Shown here piece after piece: positions 4,039 through 29,230 of a stretch of DNA of 35,872 nt. Positions within the stretch are counted from its first letter, which is position 1, and every line of letters begins with the position of its first letter. A model generated the notes under the pieces. It worked only from the letters and a program-made list of their open reading frames with translations. It made no database searches and was not told the origin of the DNA. This stretch comes from a bacterium (lineage in GTDB: Bacteria > Bacillota > Clostridia > Lachnospirales > Lachnospiraceae). The position numbers and the translations under genes were made by a program. The DNA is taken from assembly GCA_030535455.1 (NCBI GenBank), contig JAUNJY010000040.1, forward strand, positions 4,535-40,406, read 5' to 3'.

Positions 4039-5829
4039 TTAGTTCGCCTCCTTACTTAGTGCTCCAAAAGAACAGACTTGACTGCATAATCCACAACCGG
4101 TGCAAAGACTTGCATCTACTTCAATCTTTCCTTCTTTCATACTTAATGCCGGACATCCCAGCTCTCTAATACATTTCTTACATCCTGTACACTTCTCTTT
4201 ATTTACCGTTAGCTGTTCTCGTTTTTTCGTAATTGCAATACAAGGAGATTTGAATATGATCACGCGGACCCCTTCCATGCTTGCTGCCTCTTTTACCGTT
4301 GCTACTGCTTCTTTAAGATCTAATGGATTTACCTCTTTTAAATAGGCTACTCCAATGGCCTCTACCAGCTTCTTAATGCTTACAACTGGGGCAATCTCTC
4401 CCATTACGGTCTTTCCAATGCCTGGATGTACCTGGTGGCCAGTCATTGCCGTTGTATGGTTATCTAAGATAATGACGACTTCATTGGTCTTGTTGTACAC
4501 GGCGTTGATCAGTCCTGTAATACCAGAGGCAAAGAAAGTAGAGTCGCCAATAAATGCAAAATTAGTGGTATCGTTTTGTGCCCTTTCAATTCCCTGTGCC
4601 ACCGTAATGCCTGCTCCCATACAGAGACATGTATCTACCATGTCAAGTGGTGCTGCATTTCCTAAGGTATAGCATCCGATATCTCCGCAAAATACTGCTT
4701 CTTTTCCTTTCATAGCCTGTTTTACAGCATAGAAGGAAGCTCGGTGAGGACATCCTGCACATAATACCGGCGGACGCATTGGCATGGCTGGCTGGCCTTC
4801 TAATTTTTCCGTCTGGATGTGATACTCTTTTCCAAATAAGTCGCTGATACAATCTGCTGCAATGGTGGTTGAGAGTTCTCCTGCATTTGGGACCTTTCCA
4901 TTCCGTTTTCCCATGATTTCTACTGAAAGGTTGTGCTTGCCACATAGATAGATCAGTGCATCCTCAATTACAGGATCTAGTTCTTCAAATACAAGGACCT
5001 TTTCTAGTCCTTCTAAGAAACTTAGTGCTAGTTCTTCTGGAAATGGAAATGGAGTTGCGACTTTTAATAGCTTATATTCTTCCTTAGTCTTATTTAATTC
5101 TTCTTTTATGTATGTGTAGGATACACCGCCACAGGCAATGCCTAATTTTCCGGTTCCTGTCAATTTGTTATATGATAACTCTGAGAAGTCCTTGCTTAAG
5201 ATACTTTCTCTTGCTTCTAGCTTGATTTTATTCTGATAGCTTAACCGTGGGAAGATCACCCAACGTTTATCTTTTATAAATCCCTCTGGTTTTGTAAGTG
5301 CTGGCAGCTTACCGACTTCGATGGATGCGCAGGCGTGGGAGACTCTTGTTGTAGACCTGAAGATGACCGGCGTTTTATATTTTTCCGAGTAGTCAAATGC
5401 CGTCTGGATCATCTCAAATGCTTCTACTGGATTAACAGGGTCAAAGACTGGAATTTTTGCATATTTTGCAAAGTGTCTGGTATCTTGCTCGGTCTGGGAG
5501 GAGATTGGGCCTGGATCATCACAGACTAATACGACCATGCCGCCTTTTACTCCGATGTAGTTGACACACATTAATGGGTCTGAGGCTACATTTAGTCCAA
5601 CCTGTTTCATAGTTACCATGGTTCTTGCTCCGGAATAGGCTGCTCCTGCGCTTACTTCCAGGGCTGATTTTTCATTGACGGACCATTCTACATAGACTTC
5701 TCCGGGATTGCGTTTGGCAATGGTTTCTAGTACTTCTGTAGATGGTGTTCCTGGATATCCGGATACTACCTGGACTCCGGCTTTTAATGCTCCTAGTGCT
5801 ATGGCTTCATTTCCCATTAATAATTCCAT
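4039..5829 (-). CDS. iorA: Indolepyruvate ferredoxin oxidoreductase, alpha subunit
   Basis: 596 aa. The N-terminal pyruvate:ferredoxin oxidoreductase domain contains SGYPGTPSTEV at residues 23-33. The TPP-binding domain follows, with GDIGCYTLG and GDSTFFASG and the downstream ILDNHTTAMTGHQ. The C-terminal ~60 residues are a 2x[4Fe-4S] ferredoxin domain with CTGCKKC and CTGCGLCSQVC. The enzyme acts on aryl-2-oxoacids (indolepyruvate, phenylpyruvate, hydroxyphenylpyruvate). It is the first gene of iorA-iorB-paaK and lies behind a Trp-type T-box, with about 300 nt of leader between the T-box terminator and its ATG. The start is supported by AAAGGATG upstream. Confidence 0.95.
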   Translation of the reverse strand: MELLMGNEAIALGALKAGVQVVSGYPGTPSTEVLETIAKRNPGEVYVEWSVNEKSALEVSAGAAYSGARTMVTMKQVGLNVASDPLMCVNYIGVKGGMVVLVCDDPGPISSQTEQDTRHFAKYAKIPVFDPVNPVEAFEMIQTAFDYSEKYKTPVIFRSTTRVSHACASIEVGKLPALTKPEGFIKDKRWVIFPRLSYQNKIKLEARESILSKDFSELSYNKLTGTGKLGIACGGVSYTYIKEELNKTKEEYKLLKVATPFPFPEELALSFLEGLEKVLVFEELDPVIEDALIYLCGKHNLSVEIMGKRNGKVPNAGELSTTIAADCISDLFGKEYHIQTEKLEGQPAMPMRPPVLCAGCPHRASFYAVKQAMKGKEAVFCGDIGCYTLGNAAPLDMVDTCLCMGAGITVAQGIERAQNDTTNFAFIGDSTFFASGITGLINAVYNKTNEVVIILDNHTTAMTGHQVHPGIGKTVMGEIAPVVSIKKLVEAIGVAYLKEVNPLDLKEAVATVKEAASMEGVRVIIFKSPCIAITKKREQLTVNKEKCTGCKKCIRELGCPALSMKEGKIEVDASLCTGCGLCSQVCSFGALSKEAN

Positions 5830-6131
5830 ATTGTTGTCATCCTTTCTTTTTTGGTGTTGTTGGATTGTTTTTTATAATTGCAGGTGGCTTTGGCATAGTT
5901 CTATTTTTAGGTGCGGGGTTCTTGTGTTGGGTATATTGGAAGATTAGCTTTCCTATTTGTCCATTCTCACTATGATTCTTGTAGACTTTGTGTCTTTTTT
6001 TCCATATAGAAACTTTTCCTGTCTGTATGCCCATGATTTCCAGCTTTTTGTGGGTATATCGCATTATAAAGCTCAAAATATGCCCGAACGAACACACTTT
6101 TTCGTGCTCGACGAGAAGTTTCCAATCAATT
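5830..6131 (-). other. Unexplained 300-nt leader segment between the T-box terminator and iorA
   Basis: This is unusually long for a T-box leader. A minus-strand frame of 86 codons (5837-6097) ends 7 nt before iorA, but its product is low-complexity (Lys/Pro/Asn-rich) and it has no good ribosome site, so I do not call it. The part next to the T-box terminator (6106-6140) resembles the repeat hairpins at 14087-14145 and 31049-31106 through a shared GCTCGA.GAGAAGTTTCC. Otherwise I see no recognisable feature. Confidence 0.4.
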
Positions 6132-6174
6132 AAAAAAAGCTCCTATCCTATATATCACTATAGGACAGAAGCTT
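6132..6174 (-). terminator. T-box intrinsic terminator
   Basis: On the minus strand AAGCTTCTGTCCTATA pairs, with a few G-U wobbles, with TATAGGATAGGAGCTT and is followed by a run of T (complement of 6132-6138). It competes with the antiterminator that contains the T-box sequence at 6181-6195. Confidence 0.88.
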
Positions 6175-6424
6175 ATATTCTGCGGTGCCACCTAATTTCA
6201 TCTTGACCCTTACGAGGGGATTTAAGATGCTCTCATTTATGTACTAACATACATGTTGCGCGGTAACGTGCGCCTTACGTTTCCCCTACTTCCTTTTCAC
6301 AGGGTTCAGTTTGCCCTCACAAGTCCATTCACCAGTTTATCCATTGCTGCAATCTCACCACCTGCAGCTCTCTTTGAATGTTGTAAAAAGGTTACTCCTC
6401 TTGATCAACGGTTTGCTTTTATTT
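6132..6424 (-). promoter_or_regulatory. T-box riboswitch, Trp specifier, controlling iorA-iorB-paaK
   Basis: Minus-strand leader with all T-box landmarks. The K-turn region has AGAGGAGTA (near 6398). The stem I distal part has AGAGAGCTGCAGGTGGTGAG (6370-6351). A specifier-loop GAATGGAC places TGG (Trp) at 6327-6325. The T-box proper TTAGGTGGCACCGCA spans 6195-6181, followed by a terminator at 6174-6132. The antiterminator bulge reads TGGC, complementary to a tRNA 3' end GCCA. That fits tRNA-Trp, whose discriminator base is G, and not tRNA-Phe or tRNA-Tyr (A). Known mechanism: uncharged cognate tRNA stabilises the antiterminator and turns transcription on. The next downstream gene on this strand is iorA. 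Confidence 0.9.
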
Positions 6425-14342: not shown

Positions 14343-15805
14343 ATTTCAAAACATCCTATGTTAAGGTTCTATAAAGTACAATTTGCAGCGTGCAAAATTC
14401 TTCCCTTAATTTCAAAACATCCTATGTTAAGGTTCTATTGCTATAAATGTGGATAGTTCTTGCATCTCCAGTTATTTCAAAACATGCTATGTTAAGGTTC
14501 TATGAAGCAACCTGATTTGTTTGGTCAATGTCCATTGGAATTTCAAAACATCCTATCTTAAGGTTCTATCCGTTAGCATTTGTTTTTATTAATTTACTGG
14601 AAGCATTTCAAAACATCCTATGTTAAGGTTCTATATTTTATCATACTTATCAATTAAGCTCCTACTTGATTTCAAAACATCCTATGTTAAGGTTCTATGA
14701 TAATAAGATATAAAAATTAACAGAGGTAATGATAATTTCAAAACATCCTATGTTAAGGTTCTATTGTTACAGTGGCTTAAAGTGCAACGGGTACTGGAAT
14801 TTCAAAACATCCTATGTTAAGGTTCTATAGGCAGGACCAGAGGCAATTACTCCAATTGACAAATATTTCAAAACATCCTATGTTAAGGTTCTATCATGTG
14901 AAATGACTTACGATTTTAGACCATTATCATTATTTCAAAACATCCTATGTTAAGGTTCTATTAATATGGCTTGCTTTTCTCTTGTTTCTTTACTGATTTC
15001 AAAACATCCTATGTTAAGGTTCTATAAGTATTGCGTTCTTACTAAACGCGTTATAAGGCATTTCAAAACATCCTATGTTAAGGTTCTATTCAGTGCTGAC
15101 ACGCACGTAGCAAGCTGTCCTCAATTTCAAAACATCCTATGTTAAGGTTCTATATAAAAAAAGCTAAAAAGAATTATATTCCGGACAATTTCAAAACATC
15201 CTATGTTAAGGTTCTATCTGTTACTAGGAGCAGGTGCATACTTCAAAGATTTATTTCAAAACATCCTATGTTAAGGTTCTATGGATAAGTCAAAAATGAA
15301 ACTGTTACATAGACATTTATTTCAAAACATCCTATGTTAAGGTTCTATACATTAGATTACTTCGAGGCATTGGATAAGGAGCATTTCAAAACATCCTATG
15401 TTAAGGTTCTATGTTTTTTGAGCTTCTATGCCTGCTACTGATGTTTATTTCAAAACATCCTATGTTAAGGTTCTATTTCTTAATGAGAGGTAACAAACAT
15501 GCATACTTTGCAAATTTCAAAACATCCTATGTTAAGGTTCTATGAATGGACTTCCTTAACAACTTGCCAATGTTAATCGAATTTCAAAACATCCTATGTT
15601 AAGGTTCTATGGAAAATCAAAAAAATGCAATGTCATTATTCTTAAATTTCAAAACATCCTATGTTAAGGTTCTATAAATTCGAGCAGATTATTAAGGCTT
15701 ACAAGAAGGCATTTCAAAACATCCTATGTTAAGGTTCTATCTTCATAAATGTATCTGCATTGTATCCATAAGCCAATTTCAAAACATCCTATGTTAAGGT
15801 TCTAT
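14343..15805 (-). CRISPR. CRISPR array 1 (23 repeats, 22 spacers), type I-B
   Basis: 30-nt repeats begin every 64-67 nt (14343, 14409, 14474, 14540, 14605 ... 15711, 15776); spacers are 34-37 nt. Plus-strand repeat: ATTTCAAAACAT, CCTA, TGTTAAGG, TTCTAT. Repeat 3 (14474) carries one G change and repeat 4 (14540) one C change, both at the low-coordinate end, which marks the old end. The leader therefore lies on the right and the array is transcribed on the minus strand. In that orientation AACAT/ATGTT form a 5-bp hairpin and the 8-nt 5' handle would be UUUGAAAU. Confidence 0.98.
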
Positions 15806-15976: not shown

Positions 15977-16270
<294 letters not shown>

Positions 16271-17269
16271 TTAGACTCCCTCCTTGATTGAATAAGGAAT
16301 AAACTCTTGATCTTCTAGAATATATTTTATTAATTTATAGCAGTCTAGTTTCATTGCTGTTCTGTAACTTACCTTTCTTTTTAACTTTGAATGCAAAAAG
16401 ATACTCTCCATTCGTTCCTCAAATGCCTCAATAAATATTTTTCTTCCTTCTTCATTTAGCAAGCAGTAATTTACTTTCTTATCAAAATGCTTTTCAACTT
16501 GGATACGTCTATTATTTACTAAATCAAATATTGTTCGAAAAACTATGATTGGCTTAAACACCTCACATAGATCTAAGCTTAATGAAAATCTTCCTTCTGA
16601 TGGTTCATGTAAAAAGCTTATTCTTTGATCAAGATGTGTTTGATATATTGCTGCTATTGTTTTTGTATACAATAATGAATTTCCAAAAGATATGAGCGCG
16701 TTTATTGGATTATCAGGCGGACGTTTAACTCGTTTGTTCATAAGAAACTCTTGTGGTAAATAATATTGAAATGTCGAATAAAATCGTTGCCACAAATCTC
16801 CTTCTGCCCCCAATACTTGCTTTATATTATCTGCCTGCTCGATCTGATTATTTAGATTTATTTTTATCCAATCTAATGTTTCTTTCACCTCTTTTTTATC
16901 ATGTTTATAATAGTGATAAAGTACCTCATAAATGTTTACTCCAATTCCCTTTACTATTGCCTTTGCTACAATTATTCTTTTTTTATCAAACGCTTCTACT
17001 TGCTTTACAAGCAGTCTTCCACTACAGTAATGCTCTTTGGGATAAAATGTGCCGCTATAGCCTTGATAATAATTAAAGAAATGTACAATAACATGGTTTT
17101 GTGATAGAAAATCAAGTAATTTTGTATTTATCCCTACTTCATTCATACAATAGATTTCCCTTGTATTTTCAATTGGTATGTACACATTTTTGCCCTCTTT
17201 TCGAAAACAGAGCGAATTATCCTTTCGACTAAGCTCTCCCATTGAAGTAATATATCTTGTACTTCCCAC
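16271..17269 (-). CDS. cas1: CRISPR integrase Cas1
   Basis: 332 aa, type I-B Cas1. The N-terminal segment MGSTRYITSMGELSRKDNSL is typical. The catalytic metal ligands are visible: E156 in GAEGD, H221 in FLHEPSEG and D233/E236 in SLDLCEVFKP. It integrates new spacers at the leader-repeat junction with Cas2. The start codon is GTG at 17269, preceded by GGGAGTGAGG and 15 nt after the cas4 stop. The protein looks intact. Confidence 0.97.
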   Translation of the reverse strand: MGSTRYITSMGELSRKDNSLCFRKEGKNVYIPIENTREIYCMNEVGINTKLLDFLSQNHVIVHFFNYYQGYSGTFYPKEHYCSGRLLVKQVEAFDKKRIIVAKAIVKGIGVNIYEVLYHYYKHDKKEVKETLDWIKINLNNQIEQADNIKQVLGAEGDLWQRFYSTFQYYLPQEFLMNKRVKRPPDNPINALISFGNSLLYTKTIAAIYQTHLDQRISFLHEPSEGRFSLSLDLCEVFKPIIVFRTIFDLVNNRRIQVEKHFDKKVNYCLLNEEGRKIFIEAFEERMESIFLHSKLKRKVSYRTAMKLDCYKLIKYILEDQEFIPYSIKEGV

Positions 17270-17284
17270 AGCCTCACTCCCATT

Positions 17285-17776
17285 CTAAATATAACAATAT
17301 TCATAGTAAGCACATTTTTTACAGCTTGCCTTATGTAATACCTCAGGAATTTGACTCTTGCTACTTAGGGCCTCAATTTCCTCAATATACCGCTTTAACT
17401 GTTCCTCCAAATCATCCGTTAATTCAACATATTCAATTTTATGTATTTCCTTTTTCTTTTCAATAAACTCTATTCTTCCCTTTCGTATAATCCCCTTTTT
17501 CTTCAGTTCCCATAAATAAAGTAATACTTGCCATTTACAAGCTGTTACATCAGCATCTGATTTCTTATACTCTACAACATACTCATTTGTTAATCCATCT
17601 ATTTTGACTTGTTCAATTTGAATTTCTGTATTTTTATGATGCTCTGCTTTTTCTTCATGCATCGCTTTTCCATTTTTTACCTGTTCACTATTATCTTCAA
17701 GATTTAAACGATTTGCAAATAAATAGCATTGTCTTTTGCAGTGAAAATAATAATTCATCATTGTTCCTGTGACCAT
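17285..17776 (-). CDS. cas4: CRISPR-associated exonuclease Cas4
   Basis: 163 aa, RecB-like nuclease with an iron-sulfur cluster. Cysteines C13/C17 at the N-terminus and C152, C155, C161 near the C-terminus can hold the cluster. D60, E69 and K71 form the PD-(D/E)xK-type site (KID...VVEYKKS). It trims prespacers and helps select the PAM end. The ribosome site is GAGGAGGTG. It starts 80 nt from the old end of array 2, so cas4-cas1-cas2 is either read through from the array or has its own weak promoter that I could not identify. Confidence 0.95.
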   Translation of the reverse strand: MVTGTMMNYYFHCKRQCYLFANRLNLEDNSEQVKNGKAMHEEKAEHHKNTEIQIEQVKIDGLTNEYVVEYKKSDADVTACKWQVLLYLWELKKKGIIRKGRIEFIEKKKEIHKIEYVELTDDLEEQLKRYIEEIEALSSKSQIPEVLHKASCKKCAYYEYCYI

Positions 17777-17854: not shown

Positions 17855-20045
17855 ATTTCAAAACATTCAATGTTAAGGTTCGATAATGCCATTAGCGTAG
17901 CCGCAAATGACCCACGTCTATATCAAAACATCTCATGTTAAGGTTCAATACCTATTCTTTTCATCTCCCCAAGCAGCAACAGACATATTTCAAAACATCT
18001 CATGTTAAGGTTCAATGGCAGAAACGGAACTTGATAATTTAATTAGTAGCAAATTTCAAAACATCTCATGTTAAGTTTCAATTATGTTCTGTTTTTGTTT
18101 TGGTAAAGGGGGGACATAATTTCAAAACATCTCATGTTAAGGTTCAATAAACGAGGAGCTAAAACAACAGGTTCAAGCCCTTCAATTTCAAAACATCTCA
18201 TGTTAAGGTTCAATGGAAACCAAATCATACAGTGCGTTTTCACATGCTTCATTTCAAAACATCTCATGTTAAGGTTCAATCCTGCTCTGCCACGACGTCC
18301 TGTCCGTTATACTTCTATTTCAAAACATCTCATGTTAAGGTTCAATTTACAGTGTTACGATCATCAAACATCAAGTTCAAATTTCAAAACATCTCATGTT
18401 AAGGTTCAATCAATATCACGGTTCAAGTGGGAGGGGTTATCTCTATTTCAAAACATCTCATGTTAAGGTTCAATAACATCATCTGTGGCTGCATCCCGTT
18501 TGCCTGCGCTATTTCAAAACATCTCATGTTAAGGTTCAATGCTAAATGGAAATAACTTAATTGCATTCAGACCATCATTTCAAAACATCTCATGTTAAGG
18601 TTCAATATAATTAAACTTGGCTTCCATTTGCTTCTTAAAAAATTTCAAAACATCTCATGTTAAGGTTCAATTGATGGCAAGCAAATTCTAAAAAAATCAA
18701 TAGAACTATTTCAAAACATCTCATGTTAAGGTTCAATAAAGATGGAGTTATCCTAAGCCATGTAGAAGGACAATTTCAAAACATCTCATGTTAAGGTTCA
18801 ATTCTTTGTATGTATCATCATCTTCTGACTCTTGATTATTTCAAAACATCTCATGTTAAGGTTCAATTTACATTTTGCGGAACGGTAAAACTATTGGTAA
18901 TTTTATTTCAAAACATCTCATGTTAAGGTTCAATGCCGATTTTGATTAAGCAACCCGGTCTGTTCATTAATATTTCAAAACATCTCATGTTAAGGTTCAA
19001 TTGCCACCAAACCTTGTATACCGCTAATCTGTTGCAATTTCAAAACATCTCATGTTAAGGTTCAATACAGAACATCAGAATAATTTGTAATCTTATGCCC
19101 ATTTCAAAACATCTCATGTTAAGGTTCAATTGCAAGGAGGCGCAGTAAACCGTATCTTTGACGTATTTCAAAACATCTCATGTTAAGGTTCAATTATGGT
19201 AGCTTGTTGCGCAGCATTAATGGGAAAAATTTCAAAACATCTCATGTTAAGGTTCAATACGGTGCCTGGACCTACATTATCAGTTCTAAGTTATTTCAAA
19301 ACATCTCATGTTAAGGTTCAATGACGAGTAATGAGCAATAAAGCAAACGGTACCGCATTATTTCAAAACATCTCATGTTAAGGTTCAATATTTACCGTTT
19401 GTGGACTCTAATTCGGAGAATTCACTATTTCAAAACATCTCATGTTAAGGTTCAATTTAATATCAATTGCTTCGTTTAACATCGCATAAAGCATTTCAAA
19501 ACATCTCATGTTAAGGTTCAATTTTCAGCTTGTTTTGCAGCTCGTTTTTCTTCTAAATACATTTCAAAACATCTCATGTTAAGGTTCAATATTTCTCTCT
19601 TTGTTCTCTACTAGATACTTAATATTTCAAAACATCTCATGTTAAGGTTCAATTATCCAATGGCCATTAATACGATACATCCTTCCAAATTTCAAAACAT
19701 CTCATGTTAAGGTTCAATAGCCAGAGCAGAACGAGCACAGGCATTAGAGGATATTTCAAAACATCTCATGTTAAGGTTCAATAGAAGCAAAGAGTCGTTT
19801 TGATGGATACAAAATTGGATTTCAAAACATCTCATGTTAAGGTTCAATAAGTCAACATTTGCAATCCTTGGTCCGGTTGTTTAATTTCAAAACATCTCAT
19901 GTTAAGGTTCAATAGAAGCAAATGTCGGATTAAAGATTGTGGATGATGTGATTTCAAAACATCTCATGTTAAGGTTCAATGGAGTATTATGACGAAGTAC
20001 GAGAGATTTCTATATATTTCAAAACATCTCATGTTAAGGTTCAAT
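17855..20045 (-). CRISPR. CRISPR array 2 (34 repeats, 33 spacers), type I-B
   Basis: 30-nt repeats at 17855, 17920, 17987, 18053 ... 19951, 20016; period 63-67 nt. Plus-strand repeat: ATTTCAAAACAT, CTCA, TGTTAAGG, TTCAAT. It differs from array 1 at three positions, two of them in the hairpin loop. Degenerate repeats are at the low-coordinate end: 17855 has five changes, 17920 one and 18053 one. The leader is therefore at 20046 and beyond, and transcription is on the minus strand. The array separates cas3 from cas4. Confidence 0.98.
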
Positions 20046-20289: not shown

Positions 20290-22860
20290 TTAAATAAACA
20301 TTCCAAAAGTAGTTTCAAATTTCTGTCGATTAAACTTTCCGTCTTCAAAATAATTTTCTCCGCTATCTACGTAATACATTTCTCCAATCTGTTCACCGTC
20401 AGAATCATCATATTGGAACATAACATTTGACTTTACATTATAAATAAAATAGTTCATCTTGCTTTTTATGTCACTCAATAATACTTGTTTTCTTGCATAG
20501 CTTAACTTTTGATCTTTCAATAGCTCCTTATACTGTTTCCATATTTCTTTTCCAACTAGCTGTTCATTTCCCACCTGGATTTTTTGATTAAAGAAAACAC
20601 TTACCTGCCACTCATTATCACAAATCAGCTTCATTCGTTCACTGACTATTAGAGAATTCAACCTTCCTACTTGTTTTTCAAAAAAGTCTTCTAAATTCTC
20701 TCTTGTATCACATGTTAAATTGAGCATATGCAATCGTTCCATGACCTGAGCGTAGTAACTATCATACTCTTTATGTTCAAGTACATTTCTCATCTCTTTA
20801 TTTTGCAATGTTAGCTCTTGATCAACCCTGACATCATCTCTATAAATAAGACGGGCTGTATCAAGATTAAAGAAATAAACCTCTCCGATTTTACTCATAT
20901 TGCAGGAGCGATTAATTCGTCCCATAAATTGCTCCTCTGAGTCAAGAATTGAACAATCCTTAAAACCAACGTCTATATTATTTAAATCTACCCCAGCCTC
21001 TATTACTTGAGTTGCTACTAAAATAAAAGGTTCCTCTTCTGAAGCATTACAAAGGCGGTTTAAAATTCTCTTTCTTTCAATGGCATTATCATCACCTGTA
21101 ATCAGCTCTAGCTTATATTCTCCCACATTACATTCCTTAAGCTTCTGATAAAAGTCCGTTGCTGATTTCTTTGTAATAAATTCGATTAACAATTTCTTTC
21201 CCTTACCGGTAAATTCTAATACCTTTTCAAACAAGGCCTCTTTGGGATTTTCAGATGCAAGCAATTCATAATGAATGTTGGAACGATGTAGATATAGTGG
21301 ATGACTATAATATTTTTGTACATTAGGAAGTAACACCATAGGTGCTTTTGTATAAAGTGCAAGATGACTAAGTTTTGGAAGGGTCGCAGACATAATGATT
21401 ACTTTTATATTCAATAGGTCTGCAAATCCATTTAGAAATGTAATAATTTCTGACCATATTGTATTTCGGTAACTCTGAATTTCATCTAATACAATTACGC
21501 TATTCGCAAGTTGATGGAATGAAAATGCAGACTCTCTTCGGTTTCCAAACATAATGTCAAATAGAGTCACATGTGTTGATAGCGTAATGGGGTAATTTAA
21601 GAACTGGCGATCAAGAAGAATATTTTGATAGCTCTGCTCACTTAACTGTTTCTTACTATTATCTAAAAGAGAATGCAATGAATTCACAATATGTATTTGC
21701 TTTATCAACTCATTATGATTCCCAAATATTTGATTGAATATTTCCTCATTCTGCTCAACTAGGGTGTTGAAGGGGTAGATATATAATATTTTATTAATCT
21801 CTGTACTATTTTTAATTATTTGAAAGCTTAGATTAATCGCAACATTGGTCTTTCCCATTCCTGTAGGTGCCTGAAAATAAATTTGGTTCTCCTGCTTTAA
21901 TTGCTGGAAGTTATGCTCTGCATCAAGAAACAGCTCACATCTTAACTCATTTATCCCGCTAATCTTATTTTGTGTGTTGTTTCCCATGTTATATGACTGC
22001 TTCTGGTATTTTCTTATGGAATGCATCAATTCTGTATCTTCGTATATTTTTACAAATGGCCGTATATCGCCAATCACACCAAACTCAGTAATACTCACTT
22101 GACTATTCTGCTCGCTGGTAGCATAGTAATCACAAGCAAGCAATAACGAAAACATAAAACGTTCATAGGTAAATACAGTAATATTGTCCTCAGTTGCTTT
22201 AGAATAGGCTCTTTTTAACTTTTTCTGATGCTTTCCTATCCTATTTCCCTTCAATAATGGTGTGTTTTCATCTGTGTACTGTATTATATAAGTTCTTATT
22301 TCATCTATCGTGTTATTATATATTCCTTCATATGCATCGAATTCGTTAACAAACGCCTCAAACTCCCCAAGATTACCATGATGTTTTGATATGATATATC
22401 CATTTATAAAAATCAGAAATACCAGATGTCTTACCTGTTTCCCTTCAAGTTCATACTCCCTTGTTAATTCCTCCAACTTTCCTAAATAATAATCCATATA
22501 AAGGATCGCTGATATGATTGAATGGGTAGAGTTTAAACTATAGCTGATTGAAACTTTTCGAAATAACGGATTATGCATCTTATCCTTTTGAAACAACGGA
22601 TTTATTTTACCAATATCATGGAGCGTAATGGTACTCACCATTACGCTCCATATAAAATCATTGACCTGATTATAAAGCTTTGACTGTTGCTCTATAATAT
22701 TCCAAAACTTTTTTAACCTGTCTAAAACTGGCTGCAAATTACGTTCTTTGATTATATGTAGCCAATATTTATACACCTTGTCTGTATGCTCTGAAATGGT
22801 TTCCCCAGGATGCGCATAAAAAACATAATTCTTATTCAATAACTCTTCTATGCAACTCAT
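20290..22860 (-). CDS. cas3: Cas3 helicase-nuclease (HD + SF2 helicase)
   Basis: 856 aa, fused form. The N-terminal HD nuclease has H81-D82 in TLHDIGK, H113 and the SKHHGNL pair near 159. The SF2 helicase follows with Walker A QAPTGMGKT (330-338), the Walker B box DEIQ (459-462), SATLP (491-495), QVIEAGVDLNN and the motif VI region FMGRINRS. It is recruited by DNA-bound Cascade and degrades the target. AGGAGG lies 5 nt before the ATG. Last gene of cas6-cas8b-cas7-cas5-cas3. Confidence 0.97.
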   Translation of the reverse strand: MSCIEELLNKNYVFYAHPGETISEHTDKVYKYWLHIIKERNLQPVLDRLKKFWNIIEQQSKLYNQVNDFIWSVMVSTITLHDIGKINPLFQKDKMHNPLFRKVSISYSLNSTHSIISAILYMDYYLGKLEELTREYELEGKQVRHLVFLIFINGYIISKHHGNLGEFEAFVNEFDAYEGIYNNTIDEIRTYIIQYTDENTPLLKGNRIGKHQKKLKRAYSKATEDNITVFTYERFMFSLLLACDYYATSEQNSQVSITEFGVIGDIRPFVKIYEDTELMHSIRKYQKQSYNMGNNTQNKISGINELRCELFLDAEHNFQQLKQENQIYFQAPTGMGKTNVAINLSFQIIKNSTEINKILYIYPFNTLVEQNEEIFNQIFGNHNELIKQIHIVNSLHSLLDNSKKQLSEQSYQNILLDRQFLNYPITLSTHVTLFDIMFGNRRESAFSFHQLANSVIVLDEIQSYRNTIWSEIITFLNGFADLLNIKVIIMSATLPKLSHLALYTKAPMVLLPNVQKYYSHPLYLHRSNIHYELLASENPKEALFEKVLEFTGKGKKLLIEFITKKSATDFYQKLKECNVGEYKLELITGDDNAIERKRILNRLCNASEEEPFILVATQVIEAGVDLNNIDVGFKDCSILDSEEQFMGRINRSCNMSKIGEVYFFNLDTARLIYRDDVRVDQELTLQNKEMRNVLEHKEYDSYYAQVMERLHMLNLTCDTRENLEDFFEKQVGRLNSLIVSERMKLICDNEWQVSVFFNQKIQVGNEQLVGKEIWKQYKELLKDQKLSYARKQVLLSDIKSKMNYFIYNVKSNVMFQYDDSDGEQIGEMYYVDSGENYFEDGKFNRQKFETTFGMFI

Positions 22861-22872
22861 GTTTTCCTCCTG

Positions 22873-23610
22873 TCAGAAAAATACTACATTCTTACCACCA
22901 ATTAAGAACACCTCATCTTTATATTGCTTAATTGGTATATTGGAAGCAGCAAACTCTTTTAATTGGTATAGATGAAGTATAGCATCAAGTGCAACTGGTA
23001 ACTCTTCTTCATACAGAAAGATTCGTTCCTTCATGTTATCCTCATATTCGTCATACTCCATATATTGTACTTTTTCTTTTTCGTAAAGGGAATGTATCCT
23101 TAAACATTTTGACAGTGGGTCTATTTGATTAAATTCTTGAACGTTAGTGATATCCGCTAAATGATCATTACTTCCCAAATATGGTATATACGTTGTCTGC
23201 CTGTTTAGCAGTTTATTTGCAAGCTGCCTTGTAATTGGATCCTCAATTACAAAGCAAATATCCCAACTCGGATTTTCTAACCACTGCTGCTTAATATTTA
23301 AAGTCCCCCCCTGCTCTTTTGATGCATAACCTACAGTGTTATTAAAAATCTGCATCTTCTTAGGAATATATCCATCCTTTGCATTTGGTGCAATGGATAC
23401 TTTCATGTGATGAAGTTTCTCATAAAATTCTGCATATTCCTTTGACTTTTCTTCCCGTTGTCCGTATCCGTTCAGGCCTAATACCGCCCCAAACAAACCA
23501 AGCAATGCAACCTTATGAATGCTCCCATAGGTAAAATAATAATAGGAGTTTACCTCAGGCTTCTTAAAAAAAGCCGTCTTTCCAGTCAATGTAAATTTCA
23601 GAATATCCAT
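22873..23610 (-). CDS. cas5: Cascade subunit Cas5 (type I-B)
   Basis: 245 aa, RAMP fold. The N-terminal LKFTLTGKTAFFKKPEVN and the Gly-rich segment HKVALLGLFGAVLGLNGYG are typical of Cas5b. It holds the 5' handle of the crRNA and contacts Cas8. It starts 3 nt after the cas7 stop with AAAGAGGTG as ribosome site, so translation is probably coupled. Confidence 0.93.
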   Translation of the reverse strand: MDILKFTLTGKTAFFKKPEVNSYYYFTYGSIHKVALLGLFGAVLGLNGYGQREEKSKEYAEFYEKLHHMKVSIAPNAKDGYIPKKMQIFNNTVGYASKEQGGTLNIKQQWLENPSWDICFVIEDPITRQLANKLLNRQTTYIPYLGSNDHLADITNVQEFNQIDPLSKCLRIHSLYEKEKVQYMEYDEYEDNMKERIFLYEEELPVALDAILHLYQLKEFAASNIPIKQYKDEVFLIGGKNVVFF

Positions 23611-23613
23611 CCA

Positions 23614-24558
23614 TTACACCTCTTTATTGGTAAAAATATTATAAAGTTTTGCGCCATTTATCTCCTGTTCAACAACTGTAGTATAAGGATTGTAGTAAAT
23701 CTCAACAGATAAGATCTGATCTTTTACTTCATTTAACAGTTTGTCAAACTGCAAGGAAATCACGTTCTTTTCTGCTTTTCTAAATGTTACATACTCCGAA
23801 AGATTCGGTAAATATAAGTCTTTCTCAGTTTCTATGTAAATTGCCAGCTCATTCTCGCATCCTACTTTAGCATTTGTTGCATATGCAGTGACTGCTGATT
23901 TGGATGCTTCTTTGAATTTCATATAATCATCCTCTGTATATCCTTCCGTAACCCCAAGTTTTACAAATCCATTGTAAGCAGATGGATTGATTACAAATGG
24001 ATAAACATAATGTGCTTCTTTACTCACAATCTTGGTTCCTAAGGTTGAGTTTTTTGCTTCTTCATCTTTCACAGCATCCTTCGATCCATCTCGGAAAGGT
24101 GATAGAATTTGCTGCTCCTCCACGGAAATTCCTTCATATTTATTAAACCCCTGACCAATCTGTACTGCACCAGTAATTGAGATATTATTTCCTTCCTCAG
24201 CAAATGTAGCACCAAAGTTCTTTACATCTATCGCAGAAAATAGATTTTTCAAAACTTCACTTGTATCCTTGCAATCCTTTAAATTTGCTATATCAAACAG
24301 CTGCTCATATCGTTCTTTTAATGATCTTGGAACTAATGATGTTATATCTTTTTTCTTATCCTCAGATAAACGCATGGACTTAATATAGACCACCTTTTCC
24401 CCATTATTTTCCCACATCTTTTTTATAGGGTACTTTAGCGCTTTATCACTGCCGAATACTTCACCATCTGAAGTACTCTTTGGATATCCTGAAAAATCAG
24501 CATTCCAATTGGACATAATCGTTGAAACTCCTAAAACACCATATATTCTCTTCTCCAT
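23614..24558 (-). CDS. cas7: Cascade backbone subunit Cas7 (Csh2 type)
   Basis: About 314 aa. MEKRIYGVLGVSTIMSNWNADFSG is the Csh2-type start. GAVQIGQGFNKYEG and KEAHYVYPFVINPSAYNGF follow, typical of type I-B Cas7. Six or so copies polymerise along the spacer part of the crRNA and kink it every sixth base. The start at 24558 is chosen over 24585 because AGGAGG lies 9 nt upstream of it and it begins 1 nt after the cas8b stop. Confidence 0.95.
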   Translation of the reverse strand: MEKRIYGVLGVSTIMSNWNADFSGYPKSTSDGEVFGSDKALKYPIKKMWENNGEKVVYIKSMRLSEDKKKDITSLVPRSLKERYEQLFDIANLKDCKDTSEVLKNLFSAIDVKNFGATFAEEGNNISITGAVQIGQGFNKYEGISVEEQQILSPFRDGSKDAVKDEEAKNSTLGTKIVSKEAHYVYPFVINPSAYNGFVKLGVTEGYTEDDYMKFKEASKSAVTAYATNAKVGCENELAIYIETEKDLYLPNLSEYVTFRKAEKNVISLQFDKLLNEVKDQILSVEIYYNPYTTVVEQEINGAKLYNIFTNKEV

Positions 24559-24559
24559 A

Positions 24560-26311
24560 TCATTGTTCCTCCTTATTTTTTTCATAGATTAAATTTCCCG
24601 ATATGTATCCAGCTATTAAATAATCCTGCTTTACTGGTGTACCTACCTGATACGATAAAATCATACTATAAAGGTTATTAAACCGTTTAGAGTTAGCATC
24701 AATATCATAATTATATCTCTTAAACAACACGGTTAATTTCTGCTTTAAGATATTATCCGTCTTTGCATTTAAAAAACCATTGATTAACGAATGCTCCCTC
24801 TTCTTTGACTTATTCTTAGAAAGTAAATAAGAAGATAACTGTCCAACTGCATAATAATATTCTTCATCATTCTCTATACTCTGATATTCTTTAGCATTTA
24901 TTTTATCCCGCAAATTGCTTCTTACCTGTATCATTACATCTGCCATATTGGTTTTTCCCCCTTTAAAATAAGCTAATACTGCAAGTCTCATATTAAACTG
25001 ATGATTTGCTTTTATTATATATCCAAGTTCCATGGAACACTTAATTATGTTTAGAGAAATCTTGTCCCAGATTGCTTTTACAGAACTTGAATCATCCTTG
25101 TAAAACCAGTTAAAGAACGCCGTCCTGGATAATACAAGATTTCGCTTTAACTTTGGTTCTATTCCAGTAATATTACCGGGTTCTGTAAAGTAATTATTTG
25201 TCAAGAAATTAGAAAACATCACATCATTTATCCGACCTGACAGTTCTTTAAGATCCTTAATTTGTCCATATACCGGGCTTTTTAATAGCTCTGTTCCTAC
25301 TTCGGTTATGTTTCTCACATTAATTGGCTTCTCTAACTTTGAACAATAATTCGTTAGCTGGTCCATTTCCTGTATACAGGCTTCATTCTTTTCCTTATAT
25401 ACTCTTAGGTAATATCCATATCCGCTTTTTATCTTTGGCAGCTCTTTGTTCGTTAAGGGCCTGATTTGATAATCATCCTGTTCTTCCATTTCCTTAATAA
25501 AGTAAATATTATAAAGGCCACCTGAAGCACAATTCTGTAAATAATCAAAGAATAGTTTTTGCTCTAGCACATGTTCTGAAGTTTGTAAAAGGGGGACTTT
25601 CGTTACTCTATTTTTATATTCTAAATATGGTTTTTTCGAATTCATCTGCATATTATTATTGGGGAGTCCATAAATCTCGCCATTCACTTTAGTGTTAAAG
25701 TCGTTTTTATTAAATAGGTTTGGAATAAAATAGCGTTTTCCTTCTGCCTTTATGTCAATATCCTCAAATTCAAAAAATATCTTTAGATAATCTTTCCCTT
25801 CTATCTCGTAAGGTAAATTAAAGATATTTTCTTTTACCCAAGTCTTTACTAATGCTAAACGTTCTCTATTAACGGGGCCTAATTCCTTTTCAACACTTTC
25901 ATATAGCTCCTGATCATGTTTTTTTGTATATTTGGTATAGGGATTTTCTAATACTTCATAGTATCTGTCAATGATATCCTTCGTTAGTTTACCACTAGTC
26001 AGATTATCTTTTTTTATCCAGAAGGATAGATAGTTGTTAGAGTGGATTACTTTTTTAGGGTCAATCGGCTTGTTCATTTCCACCAGCTTAGAGTAGTAAT
26101 CCAATTGCGAGATTTTGTATTTTTCTAGCGGTGAAAGATTTAAAGTCCTGGTCTTCTTATCCTGCTTCACCTTAATATGTAATTTCTCTATAAATTTTTC
26201 ATCTTGATATTTCATAACGATATAGTCTCCATCTGCAGGAACATAGGTATCCAGTACAAACTTCTCCATATCTGGCTGTCTTTTGAATATTTTAATACAA
26301 TTATTAAGCAT
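24560..26311 (-). CDS. cas8b: Cascade large subunit Cas8b (Csh1/TM1802 family)
   Basis: 583 aa. The gene lies between cas6 and cas7, where type I-B carries the large subunit, and the sequence has the TM1802-type pattern (SFWIKKDNL, YFKGGKTNMADVM). Cas8b reads the PAM and, through an internal start in some systems, may also supply a small subunit. No zinc-finger cysteines are visible. The ribosome site GGAGGGG is 4 nt before the ATG; the cas6 stop is 10 nt upstream. Confidence 0.9.
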   Translation of the reverse strand: MLNNCIKIFKRQPDMEKFVLDTYVPADGDYIVMKYQDEKFIEKLHIKVKQDKKTRTLNLSPLEKYKISQLDYYSKLVEMNKPIDPKKVIHSNNYLSFWIKKDNLTSGKLTKDIIDRYYEVLENPYTKYTKKHDQELYESVEKELGPVNRERLALVKTWVKENIFNLPYEIEGKDYLKIFFEFEDIDIKAEGKRYFIPNLFNKNDFNTKVNGEIYGLPNNNMQMNSKKPYLEYKNRVTKVPLLQTSEHVLEQKLFFDYLQNCASGGLYNIYFIKEMEEQDDYQIRPLTNKELPKIKSGYGYYLRVYKEKNEACIQEMDQLTNYCSKLEKPINVRNITEVGTELLKSPVYGQIKDLKELSGRINDVMFSNFLTNNYFTEPGNITGIEPKLKRNLVLSRTAFFNWFYKDDSSSVKAIWDKISLNIIKCSMELGYIIKANHQFNMRLAVLAYFKGGKTNMADVMIQVRSNLRDKINAKEYQSIENDEEYYYAVGQLSSYLLSKNKSKKREHSLINGFLNAKTDNILKQKLTVLFKRYNYDIDANSKRFNNLYSMILSYQVGTPVKQDYLIAGYISGNLIYEKNKEEQ

Positions 26312-26321
26312 TTAACCCCTC

Positions 26322-27023
26322 CTACATTGCTCTATAATTAGCATATCCATAGCCTCTACTGTTAAGTTCACAGATTCCTGTACCCAATAGGAAATAGGCT
26401 ATGCTTTGTGCTGTTTCATTTTCAGCAATGTATAGTTCAAACTTATCCCCTAATAGGCTTATGTTCTTGTATCTGATTTTCATGGGTTTATCATTTAACA
26501 TCTTAATATTTGTATATAGCTTAAAATCCTCAGCTATTTTTTCTCCGGTATACTGATTATATTTTTTTACTGCATTTTGAAATATTCGGTGCTGAAACTC
26601 CTCAAAGCTATGAGATTTTTTCCAGTATCCATCATTGAATTTCATTATTGCCGGTGTAAGTAAATATAGTTTTTCAATCATGCATCTCTTAATTGTCACC
26701 ATTTCGCAACTTAGGCCTTTCATTGTCTCTGTATAGGCAATCGCTAATTCTTTCTCAAAATACTTTGCTAATTTCTCATCCAGACAACGGATTGAAAACG
26801 TATATAGTTTTCCTTCCTGATAACAGCGGTTCTTTTCTATTGGCTTTAATCCATCAAATACGTAATTTTTATAGCAGTTCTTATTATGTAATTGACTATA
26901 CTCTTCTGTCTTTAACAGGGTACTATCTACCAAGTATGCAAGTTCAATCTGCATTCTTTCAAATGGTACACTTTTCATCATATAGACCTTGCAATTGACC
27001 TGATATACCGCTAACTTTCTCAT
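26322..27023 (-). CDS. cas6: crRNA-processing endoribonuclease Cas6
   Basis: About 233 aa, RAMP superfamily. The C-terminal glycine-rich loop GTGICELNSRGYGYANYR is the Cas6 signature. It cuts the repeats of both arrays, leaving an 8-nt 5' handle, and would also have to cut the degenerate repeats of the small RNA at 27160-27304. First gene of the effector operon. ATG at 27023 has GGAGGTGA at good distance; a TTG one codon earlier is an alternative. Confidence 0.93.
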   Translation of the reverse strand: MRKLAVYQVNCKVYMMKSVPFERMQIELAYLVDSTLLKTEEYSQLHNKNCYKNYVFDGLKPIEKNRCYQEGKLYTFSIRCLDEKLAKYFEKELAIAYTETMKGLSCEMVTIKRCMIEKLYLLTPAIMKFNDGYWKKSHSFEEFQHRIFQNAVKKYNQYTGEKIAEDFKLYTNIKMLNDKPMKIRYKNISLLGDKFELYIAENETAQSIAYFLLGTGICELNSRGYGYANYRAM

Positions 27024-27055
27024 CAAAACTTCACCTCCCTATATCTGATACACAT

Positions 27056-27084
27056 ACCATAAATCAATTGTAAATATATGTCAA
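27056..27084 (-). promoter_or_regulatory. Promoter of the cas effector operon
   Basis: Minus strand: TTGACA (27084-27079), exact 17-nt spacer, TATGGT (27061-27056). The start should fall near 27049, about 25 nt before the cas6 ATG. Confidence 0.8.
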
Positions 27085-27102
27085 TCATTTTAATGATATA
27101 TA
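27085..27102. promoter_or_regulatory. Predicted Cascade target of the mini-CRISPR RNA at the cas promoter
   Basis: Plus-strand TCA (27085-27087) is followed by TTTTAATGATATATA (27088-27102). It equals the first 15 nt of the guide at 27192-27206 except at positions 6 and 12. TCA abuts the -35 box of the cas promoter (27079-27084) and is a PAM known from several clostridial type I-B systems. Match ends after position 15. Binding of Cascade here would cover the cas promoter without enough pairing for Cas3 recruitment. Function is inferred. Confidence 0.65.
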
Positions 27103-27126
27103 GCTTAATGTTTCTTGTTGCAGTTT

Positions 27127-27155
27127 TTGTACTTCATTTATTACTATGTTATAAT
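27127..27155 (+). promoter_or_regulatory. Promoter of the mini-CRISPR RNA
   Basis: TTGTAC (27127-27132), 17-nt spacer, TATAAT (27150-27155), with TG one base upstream of the -10 (extended -10). It is divergent from the cas promoter; the two -35 boxes are about 42 nt apart with the predicted target between them. Confidence 0.8.
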
Positions 27156-27159
27156 GATA

Positions 27160-27191
27160 ATCGGAGCGTAACAGATTTACTGTTTTTAAAT
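27160..27191 (+). repeat. Degenerate CRISPR repeat 1 of the mini-CRISPR RNA
   Basis: Aligns to the transcribed-strand repeat of array 2 at 20 of 30 positions with a 2-nt insertion in the loop. The hairpin arms changed together: AACAT/ATGTT in the arrays is AACAG/CTGTT here (27170-27174 with 27180-27184), keeping five pairs. The 3' end TTTTTAAAT replaces TTTTGAAAT. Confidence 0.7.
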
Positions 27192-27224
27192 TTTTATTGA
27201 TACATAATAAATAAAAATTAGCAT

Positions 27225-27254
27225 AACGAACCGTAACATTATATGTAAGAAGGA
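27225..27254 (+). repeat. Degenerate CRISPR repeat 2 of the mini-CRISPR RNA
   Basis: GAACCGTAACATTATATGT (27228-27246) matches the array 2 repeat core GAACCTTAACATGAGATGT at 16 of 19 positions; two of the three differences are in the hairpin loop. ACAT/ATGT pairing is kept. The 3' third of the repeat is lost and runs into the terminator. Confidence 0.75.
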
Positions 27255-27303
27255 GCATCATCCCTTGCTTTTTACTAAAGCCAAGGGATGATGCTCCTTT
27301 TTT
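27251..27303. terminator. Perfect terminator shared by the mini-CRISPR RNA and groEL
   Basis: AGGAGCATCATCCCTTG (27251-27267) and CAAGGGATGATGCTCCT (27282-27298) pair over 17 bp, extended by CTTT/AAAG. On the plus strand TTTTTT follows, ideal for the small RNA. On the minus strand the tail is TTCTTAC, weaker, but it still lies 20 nt after groEL. Confidence 0.85.
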
Positions 27304-27321
27304 ATTAGAACTATTTTTTTA

Positions 27322-29230
<1,909 letters not shown>

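Follow-up and report, generated by a model that had tools for sequence, protein, structure and literature searches.

We found that positions 27162-27306 (+ strand) of the window, the whole stretch of 35,872 nucleotides of Lachnospiraceae DNA analyzed here, very probably form a creR gene whose RNA guides the cell's own type I-B Cascade to repress the cas operon. The locus has a mini-CRISPR anatomy, its guide matches the DNA upstream of cas6 above chance, and the same architecture recurs in relatives; from these features we infer transcription, processing, binding, repression and sensing. The original report of CreR is said to be that of Liu et al., 2023, in Cell Host Microbe 31:1481. Our locus is well supported by its sequence as one more example of this already known kind, the cas-regulating RNAs that the available parts of three papers report for types I-B, I-E and V-A (PMC13131331, PMC12737573, PMC12948488).

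The cas locus and the putative creR gene

The features on which the argument depends are as follows.

27127..27155, + strand: putative creR promoter TTGTAC-17-TATAAT with an extended -10 TG (read from the sequence)
27162..27191, + strand: pseudo-repeat 1, with a hairpin ACAG-ATTTA-CTGT (27171-27183) and then the 8-nt handle TTTTAAAT (27184-27191; predicted fold)
27192..27224, + strand: 33-nt guide, positions 1-15 of which match the cas promoter region (sequence comparison)
27225..27254, + strand: pseudo-repeat 2, with the repeat kept in its first 22 nt (27225-27246) and the handle lost (shuffles)
27247..27306, + strand: strong hairpin and then a T-run, a probable terminator (predicted fold)
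27056..27084, - strand: predicted cas promoter TTGACA-17-TATGGT (consensus match only, 10 of 12 letters)
26325..27023, - strand: cas6, first gene of the operon (Cas6b profile, E 5.6e-88; NCBIfam below cut-off)
24560..26311, - strand: cas8b (profile, E 3.3e-177; no Pfam or NCBIfam match)
23614..24585, - strand: cas7 (profile matches)
22873..23610, - strand: cas5b (profile matches)
20290..22860, - strand: cas3, HD and helicase parts (profile matches)
17855..20045, - strand: CRISPR array 2, repeat ATTGAACCTTAACATGAGATGTTTTGAAAT, 34 repeats found (array search)
15977..17776, - strand: cas4, cas1 and cas2 (profile matches)
14343..15805, - strand: CRISPR array 1, repeat ATAGAACCTTAACATAGGATGTTTTGAAAT (array search)

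Along the minus strand the genes thus run cas6, cas8b, cas7, cas5b, cas3, array, cas4, cas1, cas2 and second array, and the effector set (Cas6b, Cas8b, Cas7, Cas5b, Cas3) is complete and of type I-B, as is Cas1. The promoter upstream of this operon is predicted: a scan of 26950-27330 gives two promoter-like sites, no more than in shuffled sequence (mean 2.8), and TTGACA-17-TATGGT is the better match. The arrays at 14343-15805 (ATAGAACC...AGGATG) and 17855-20045 (ATTGAACC...GAGATG) flank cas4-cas1-cas2 with slightly differing repeats. Elsewhere in the window, a T-box leader (Rfam RF00230, 105.8 bits) at 6158-6417 (- strand) precedes minus-strand ORFs at 5837-6097 and 4039-5829.

The putative creR gene points away from cas6 and towards groEL. 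Its -10 box TATAAT occupies 27150-27155, placing the predicted RNA start near 27162; the promoter is missing from the list of our promoter scan, whose rule demands four of six -35 letters where three are present here. The mini-CRISPR arrangement lies near the cas genes and outside the arrays, and pseudo-repeat 1 was recognized by its hairpin, handle and spacing rather than by its letters, which are not significant either in the best match of the 3' 14 nt (10/14, equalled by 1305 of 2000 shuffles) or when all 30 nt of the repeat are compared (equalled by 447 of 2000). Compared to the array stem ACAT/ATGT, its stem ACAG/CTGT has one pair altered on both sides. Over its first 22 nt, pseudo-repeat 2 agrees with the array-2 repeat at 17 of 22 positions (0 of 2000 shuffles as good) and with the array-1 repeat at 16 of 22 (20 of 2000), and its handle is lost, as it likewise is in several relatives. 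The whole of 27162-27306 folds with a predicted energy of -50.3 kcal/mol (z -8.8), and a simple terminator scan lists none for this region. Lying where the creR-like gene and groEL converge, the very stable hairpin at 27247-27306 may end both transcripts. A hydrophobic ORF of 40 codons (27078-27200, + strand) passes through the target, the creR promoter and the guide.

Guide positions 1-15 (27192-27206, TTTTATTGATACATA) equal target 27088-27102 (TTTTAATGATATATA) at every position except 6 and 12, and TCA (27085-27087) lies immediately 5' of the target. Positions 16-19 mismatch and matches beyond them are scattered. Because the predicted promoter occupies 27084-27056 (- strand), TCA abuts its -35 box TTGACA (27084-27079, minus strand). 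An earlier note on this DNA had described the match, its end after position 15 and a TCA touching the cas -35; these readings proved exact, letter for letter, the -35 box itself being predicted.

We assessed how often such a match arises by chance using the region 26996-27162, both strands, which has 11 TCA sites. A run as good (13 matches, with positions 6, 12 and 18 free) was reached at TCA sites by 6 of 300,000 shuffled guides, and by 1 of 20,000 when the PAM was not required. A weaker test, 13 of 15 matches with mismatches anywhere, was passed by 108 of 200,000 shuffled guides at TCA sites and by 88 of 10,000 at any site. The 53 array spacers that we extracted reached runs of at most 8 in the same cas-upstream region. 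The pattern TTTTANTGATANATA occurs four times in the assembly, as the guide, the target and two other copies preceded by TAG and TGA, and the target is the only one of the four behind TCA.

Guide-target pairs upstream of cas6 in relatives

Loci for comparison were collected with Cas6 as the query, which yielded at least 68 loci from named genomes; five of 61 genomes searched matched at E 0.001 and 17 of 397 at E 1e-20, own genome included in each case, and none of three same-genus genomes searched (one of them 76% complete) held a cas6 match. Four archaeal loci (L092-L095) were left out of the 68-locus set, ten extra loci were added (L003, L008, L009, L010, L014, L018, L019, L020, L022, L023) and other extra loci were left out (L004-L007, L011-L013, L015-L017, L021); six of the latter (L011, L012, L013, L016, L017, L021) lie on contigs equal in length to one in the 68-locus set. 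The resulting 75 regions, the window among them, were reduced to 69 by dropping three same-contig copies (L010, L014, L018) and three regions shorter than 400 bp (L028, L065, L083). Cas6 identity to the window is at most 48% across the 68 relatives used and at most 47% for the named relatives, and cas6 starts in relatives were taken from the match, not from annotation.

Pseudo-repeats outside arrays are common upstream of cas6 in these relatives. When we screened for a handle followed by a guide whose target stands behind TCA, 30 of the 69 upstream regions had a run of at least 11 and 39 had no pair, compared to a mean of 0.2 and a maximum of 2 in 20 dinucleotide shuffles. TCA ranked first of all 64 triplets in this screen, followed by AAT (13) and AAA (6). 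An identity rule (12/14 at any positions, with TCA) also selected 30 of 69 loci, whereas 20 shuffles averaged 2.6. Eleven other triplets were put through this rule: TTA gave 14, TAA 12 and the rest at most 7. The expected number of chance pairs is thus 0.2 by the run rule and 2.6 by the identity rule. A looser cut of 11/14 passed 45 of 69 loci and was not used, because 10-18 also passed in ten shuffles. The earlier note had proposed comparing this site in related strains for co-variation with the guide; guides do match their own cas-upstream DNA behind TCA (30/69), but the loci available are from distant relatives, not strains, in which the co-variation of this particular guide is not traceable.

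We also compared guides behind pseudo-repeats with their own upstream regions, with no PAM imposed; the 121 guides include array spacers, same-contig copies and the guide of the window, which was added by hand. A run of at least 11 was found at 26 distinct loci, window included, with TCA before the target in 25 and TCG in one, and when each guide was tested on other loci at most about one was as good. L071 and L076 (TCG, far from cas6) pass this comparison and fail the handle and TCA screen, while L040, L047, L048, L050, L075 and L078 pass only the latter.

The 29 CreR-like pairs beyond that of the window (L020, L030, L031, L034-L041, L047, L048, L050, L052, L053, L057-L059, L064, L068, L075, L078, L080, L081, L084, L088, L089, L091), of which one or two may be chance pairs, come from records that bear the names Clostridium, Eubacterium, Mediterraneibacter, Muricomes, Peptostreptococcus, Sarcina, Eisenbergiella and others. 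Since L064 and L068 have like guides, as do L052 and L057, we count about 28 independent pairs. Pseudo-repeat 1 is identical to the array repeat in L089 and degenerate in most loci.

A 4-bp stem beside the handle is present in 29 of 30 loci, whereas shuffles give 22% when G-T pairs and loops of 2-8 are permitted; 12 of these 29 stems depart from ACAT/ATGT, including that of the window (ACAG/CTGT). If the complex is taken to cover 36 nt at the target, its footprint reaches a predicted cas-sense promoter in 17 of 30 pairs (23% for random places) and reaches none in 13. Guide and target lie on the cas strand in 23 of 30 pairs, and L020 and L078 resemble the window's divergent arrangement.

Within guide positions 1-13 of the 30 loci chosen by identity, the only mismatches are 16 at position 6 and 15 at position 12. 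As the choice of best hit in this count prefers runs with positions 6 and 12 free, we recounted over all 35 hits without selection; position 6 then had 18 mismatches, position 12 had 15 and the other positions had 6 in total. The match in relatives fades between about positions 16 and 22. For the type I-E Cascade of E. coli, the available part of PMC5904413 reports that every sixth base is flipped out, with position 6 not wholly neutral, and that Cascade binds in vivo at short PAM-proximal matches while interference takes about 18-25 bp. The pattern of our pairs fits a complex that flips out every sixth base and a match length that would allow binding but not interference. The earlier note had asserted both points: flipped-out sixth bases accounted there for the two mismatches, which about 28 independent pairs bear out by mismatching almost exclusively at 6 and 12, and a short PAM-proximal match was held to permit binding without Cas3 cutting, in agreement with the E. 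coli findings.

We suggest that TCA is the PAM of this Cascade. Its use by several clostridial I-B systems, stated in the earlier note, is reported in the available parts of PMC4860712 and PMC10328091, and the same table that lists the clostridial TCA gives CCA/CCT for C. difficile. Spacers of both arrays matched no phage or plasmid in a search in distant mode, and eight spacer patterns (the first 27-28 nt of eight of the 53 spacers, with any base at positions 6, 12 and 18 and otherwise exact) matched no viral contig; with no protospacer found, it is the comparison with relatives that points to TCA.

Alternative readings and known systems

The window's RNA resembles the CreA RNAs of CreTA and CrePA modules in having a single guide flanked by pseudo-repeats and a partial match to a promoter behind a putative PAM, an anatomy described for CreA in the available part of PMC9458426, and in the proposed role of Cascade as the repressor. 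Were it such an antitoxin RNA, the repressed promoter would drive a toxin rather than cas, and the hydrophobic ORF at 27078-27200, which crosses the target and the creR promoter, offers itself as a candidate; yet this ORF has no ribosome site before its ATG and no promoter-like site on the + strand upstream, and by eye no ORF of 4-40 codons in 27027-27321 resembles a known toxin. The promoter adjoining the target instead leads into cas6, which is preceded by the ribosome site GGGAGGTG, and the target lies upstream of cas6 in relatives too. We consequently rejected a toxin-gene promoter as the guide's target, finding no convincing toxin ORF in 27027-27321, and consider the antitoxin reading very improbable. 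A literature search for CreA in Clostridium yielded mostly unrelated matches.

Degenerate repeats and the 39 of 69 regions with no pair would also suit a worn-out CRISPR remnant with no present role, whose promoter match is accidental or left by past self-acquisition. Decay, however, would neither limit the mismatches of about 28 independent pairs to positions 6 and 12 nor preserve paired stems with altered letters, and the locus has its own predicted promoter and terminator, so that we think it very unlikely that this is a relic. Mere similarity of two AT-rich stretches gains some credit from the 88 of 10,000 shuffled guides that reach 13/15 when mismatches are allowed anywhere and no PAM is demanded, but with the PAM and the flipped positions imposed only 6 of 300,000 do so, and the pattern recurs in relatives far above shuffles; chance is extremely unlikely to account for it.

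The preferred assignment is thus to CreR, with which the locus shares a mini-CRISPR beside the cas genes, partial complementarity of the guide to the (here predicted) cas promoter, a type I-B effector with no toxin gene found, and a sensitivity to crRNA load and anti-CRISPR proteins that has been proposed for CreR and would apply here as well. No difference in kind was seen; in the window creR and cas6 point away from each other, and the target abuts the predicted -35 box with its PAM end. Autorepression of SpyCas9 is guided by a long-form tracrRNA. There too a CRISPR effector lowers its own expression and anti-CRISPR proteins relieve it, as we suppose for the present system, in a type II setting with another RNA and another effector (available part of PMC13131331). 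No paper among the matches listed in our literature search describes CreR in this clade, a weak negative given that subscription journals lie mostly outside its coverage; among the papers listed for CreR together with clostridia, the only one about CreR was the review PMC12737573, the available part of which mentions clostridia once, in a reference on C. difficile.

Proposed autorepression of the cas operon

We propose that creR is transcribed into a short RNA that Cas6 would trim at the pseudo-repeat 1 hairpin to give the 8-nt handle and 33-nt guide, so that the trimmed RNA would start TTTTAAAT-TTTTATTG and end in pseudo-repeat 2. Loaded into the I-B Cascade, it would direct the complex to TCA at 27085-27087, where about 15 bp would be opened just upstream of the cas -35. 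The complex would sit against the -35 and block RNA polymerase, and Cascade would therefore limit its own synthesis, while the R-loop would be too short to license Cas3. Repression would ease when Cascade is scarce, when ordinary crRNAs occupy it or when an anti-CRISPR blocks it; relief of the CreR loop by crRNA load or anti-CRISPR is described in the available parts of PMC13131331, PMC12737573 and PMC12948488. Such feedback of Cascade and the RNA on cas was already suggested in the earlier note, and the comparison with relatives, together with analogy to the CreR reviews, lends it support. A single bound complex may also turn off creR along with the cas operon, since the promoters of creR and cas6 diverge here with the target between them. 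Guide and effector would then each control how much of the other is made, in a double feedback that we view as rather unlikely; the guide-long footprint (27088-27120) ends 6 nt short of the creR -35 at 27127.

With these findings a Lachnospiraceae I-B system joins those that seem to regulate their own abundance through an RNA guide. The roughly 28 independent pairs, with mismatches on the flipped bases 6 and 12, form a natural record of how type I complexes read their targets, and, with no protospacer needed, they point to TCA as the PAM of this clade. For users of such endogenous systems, they suggest that the system itself holds down cas expression and that removing this RNA would raise it.
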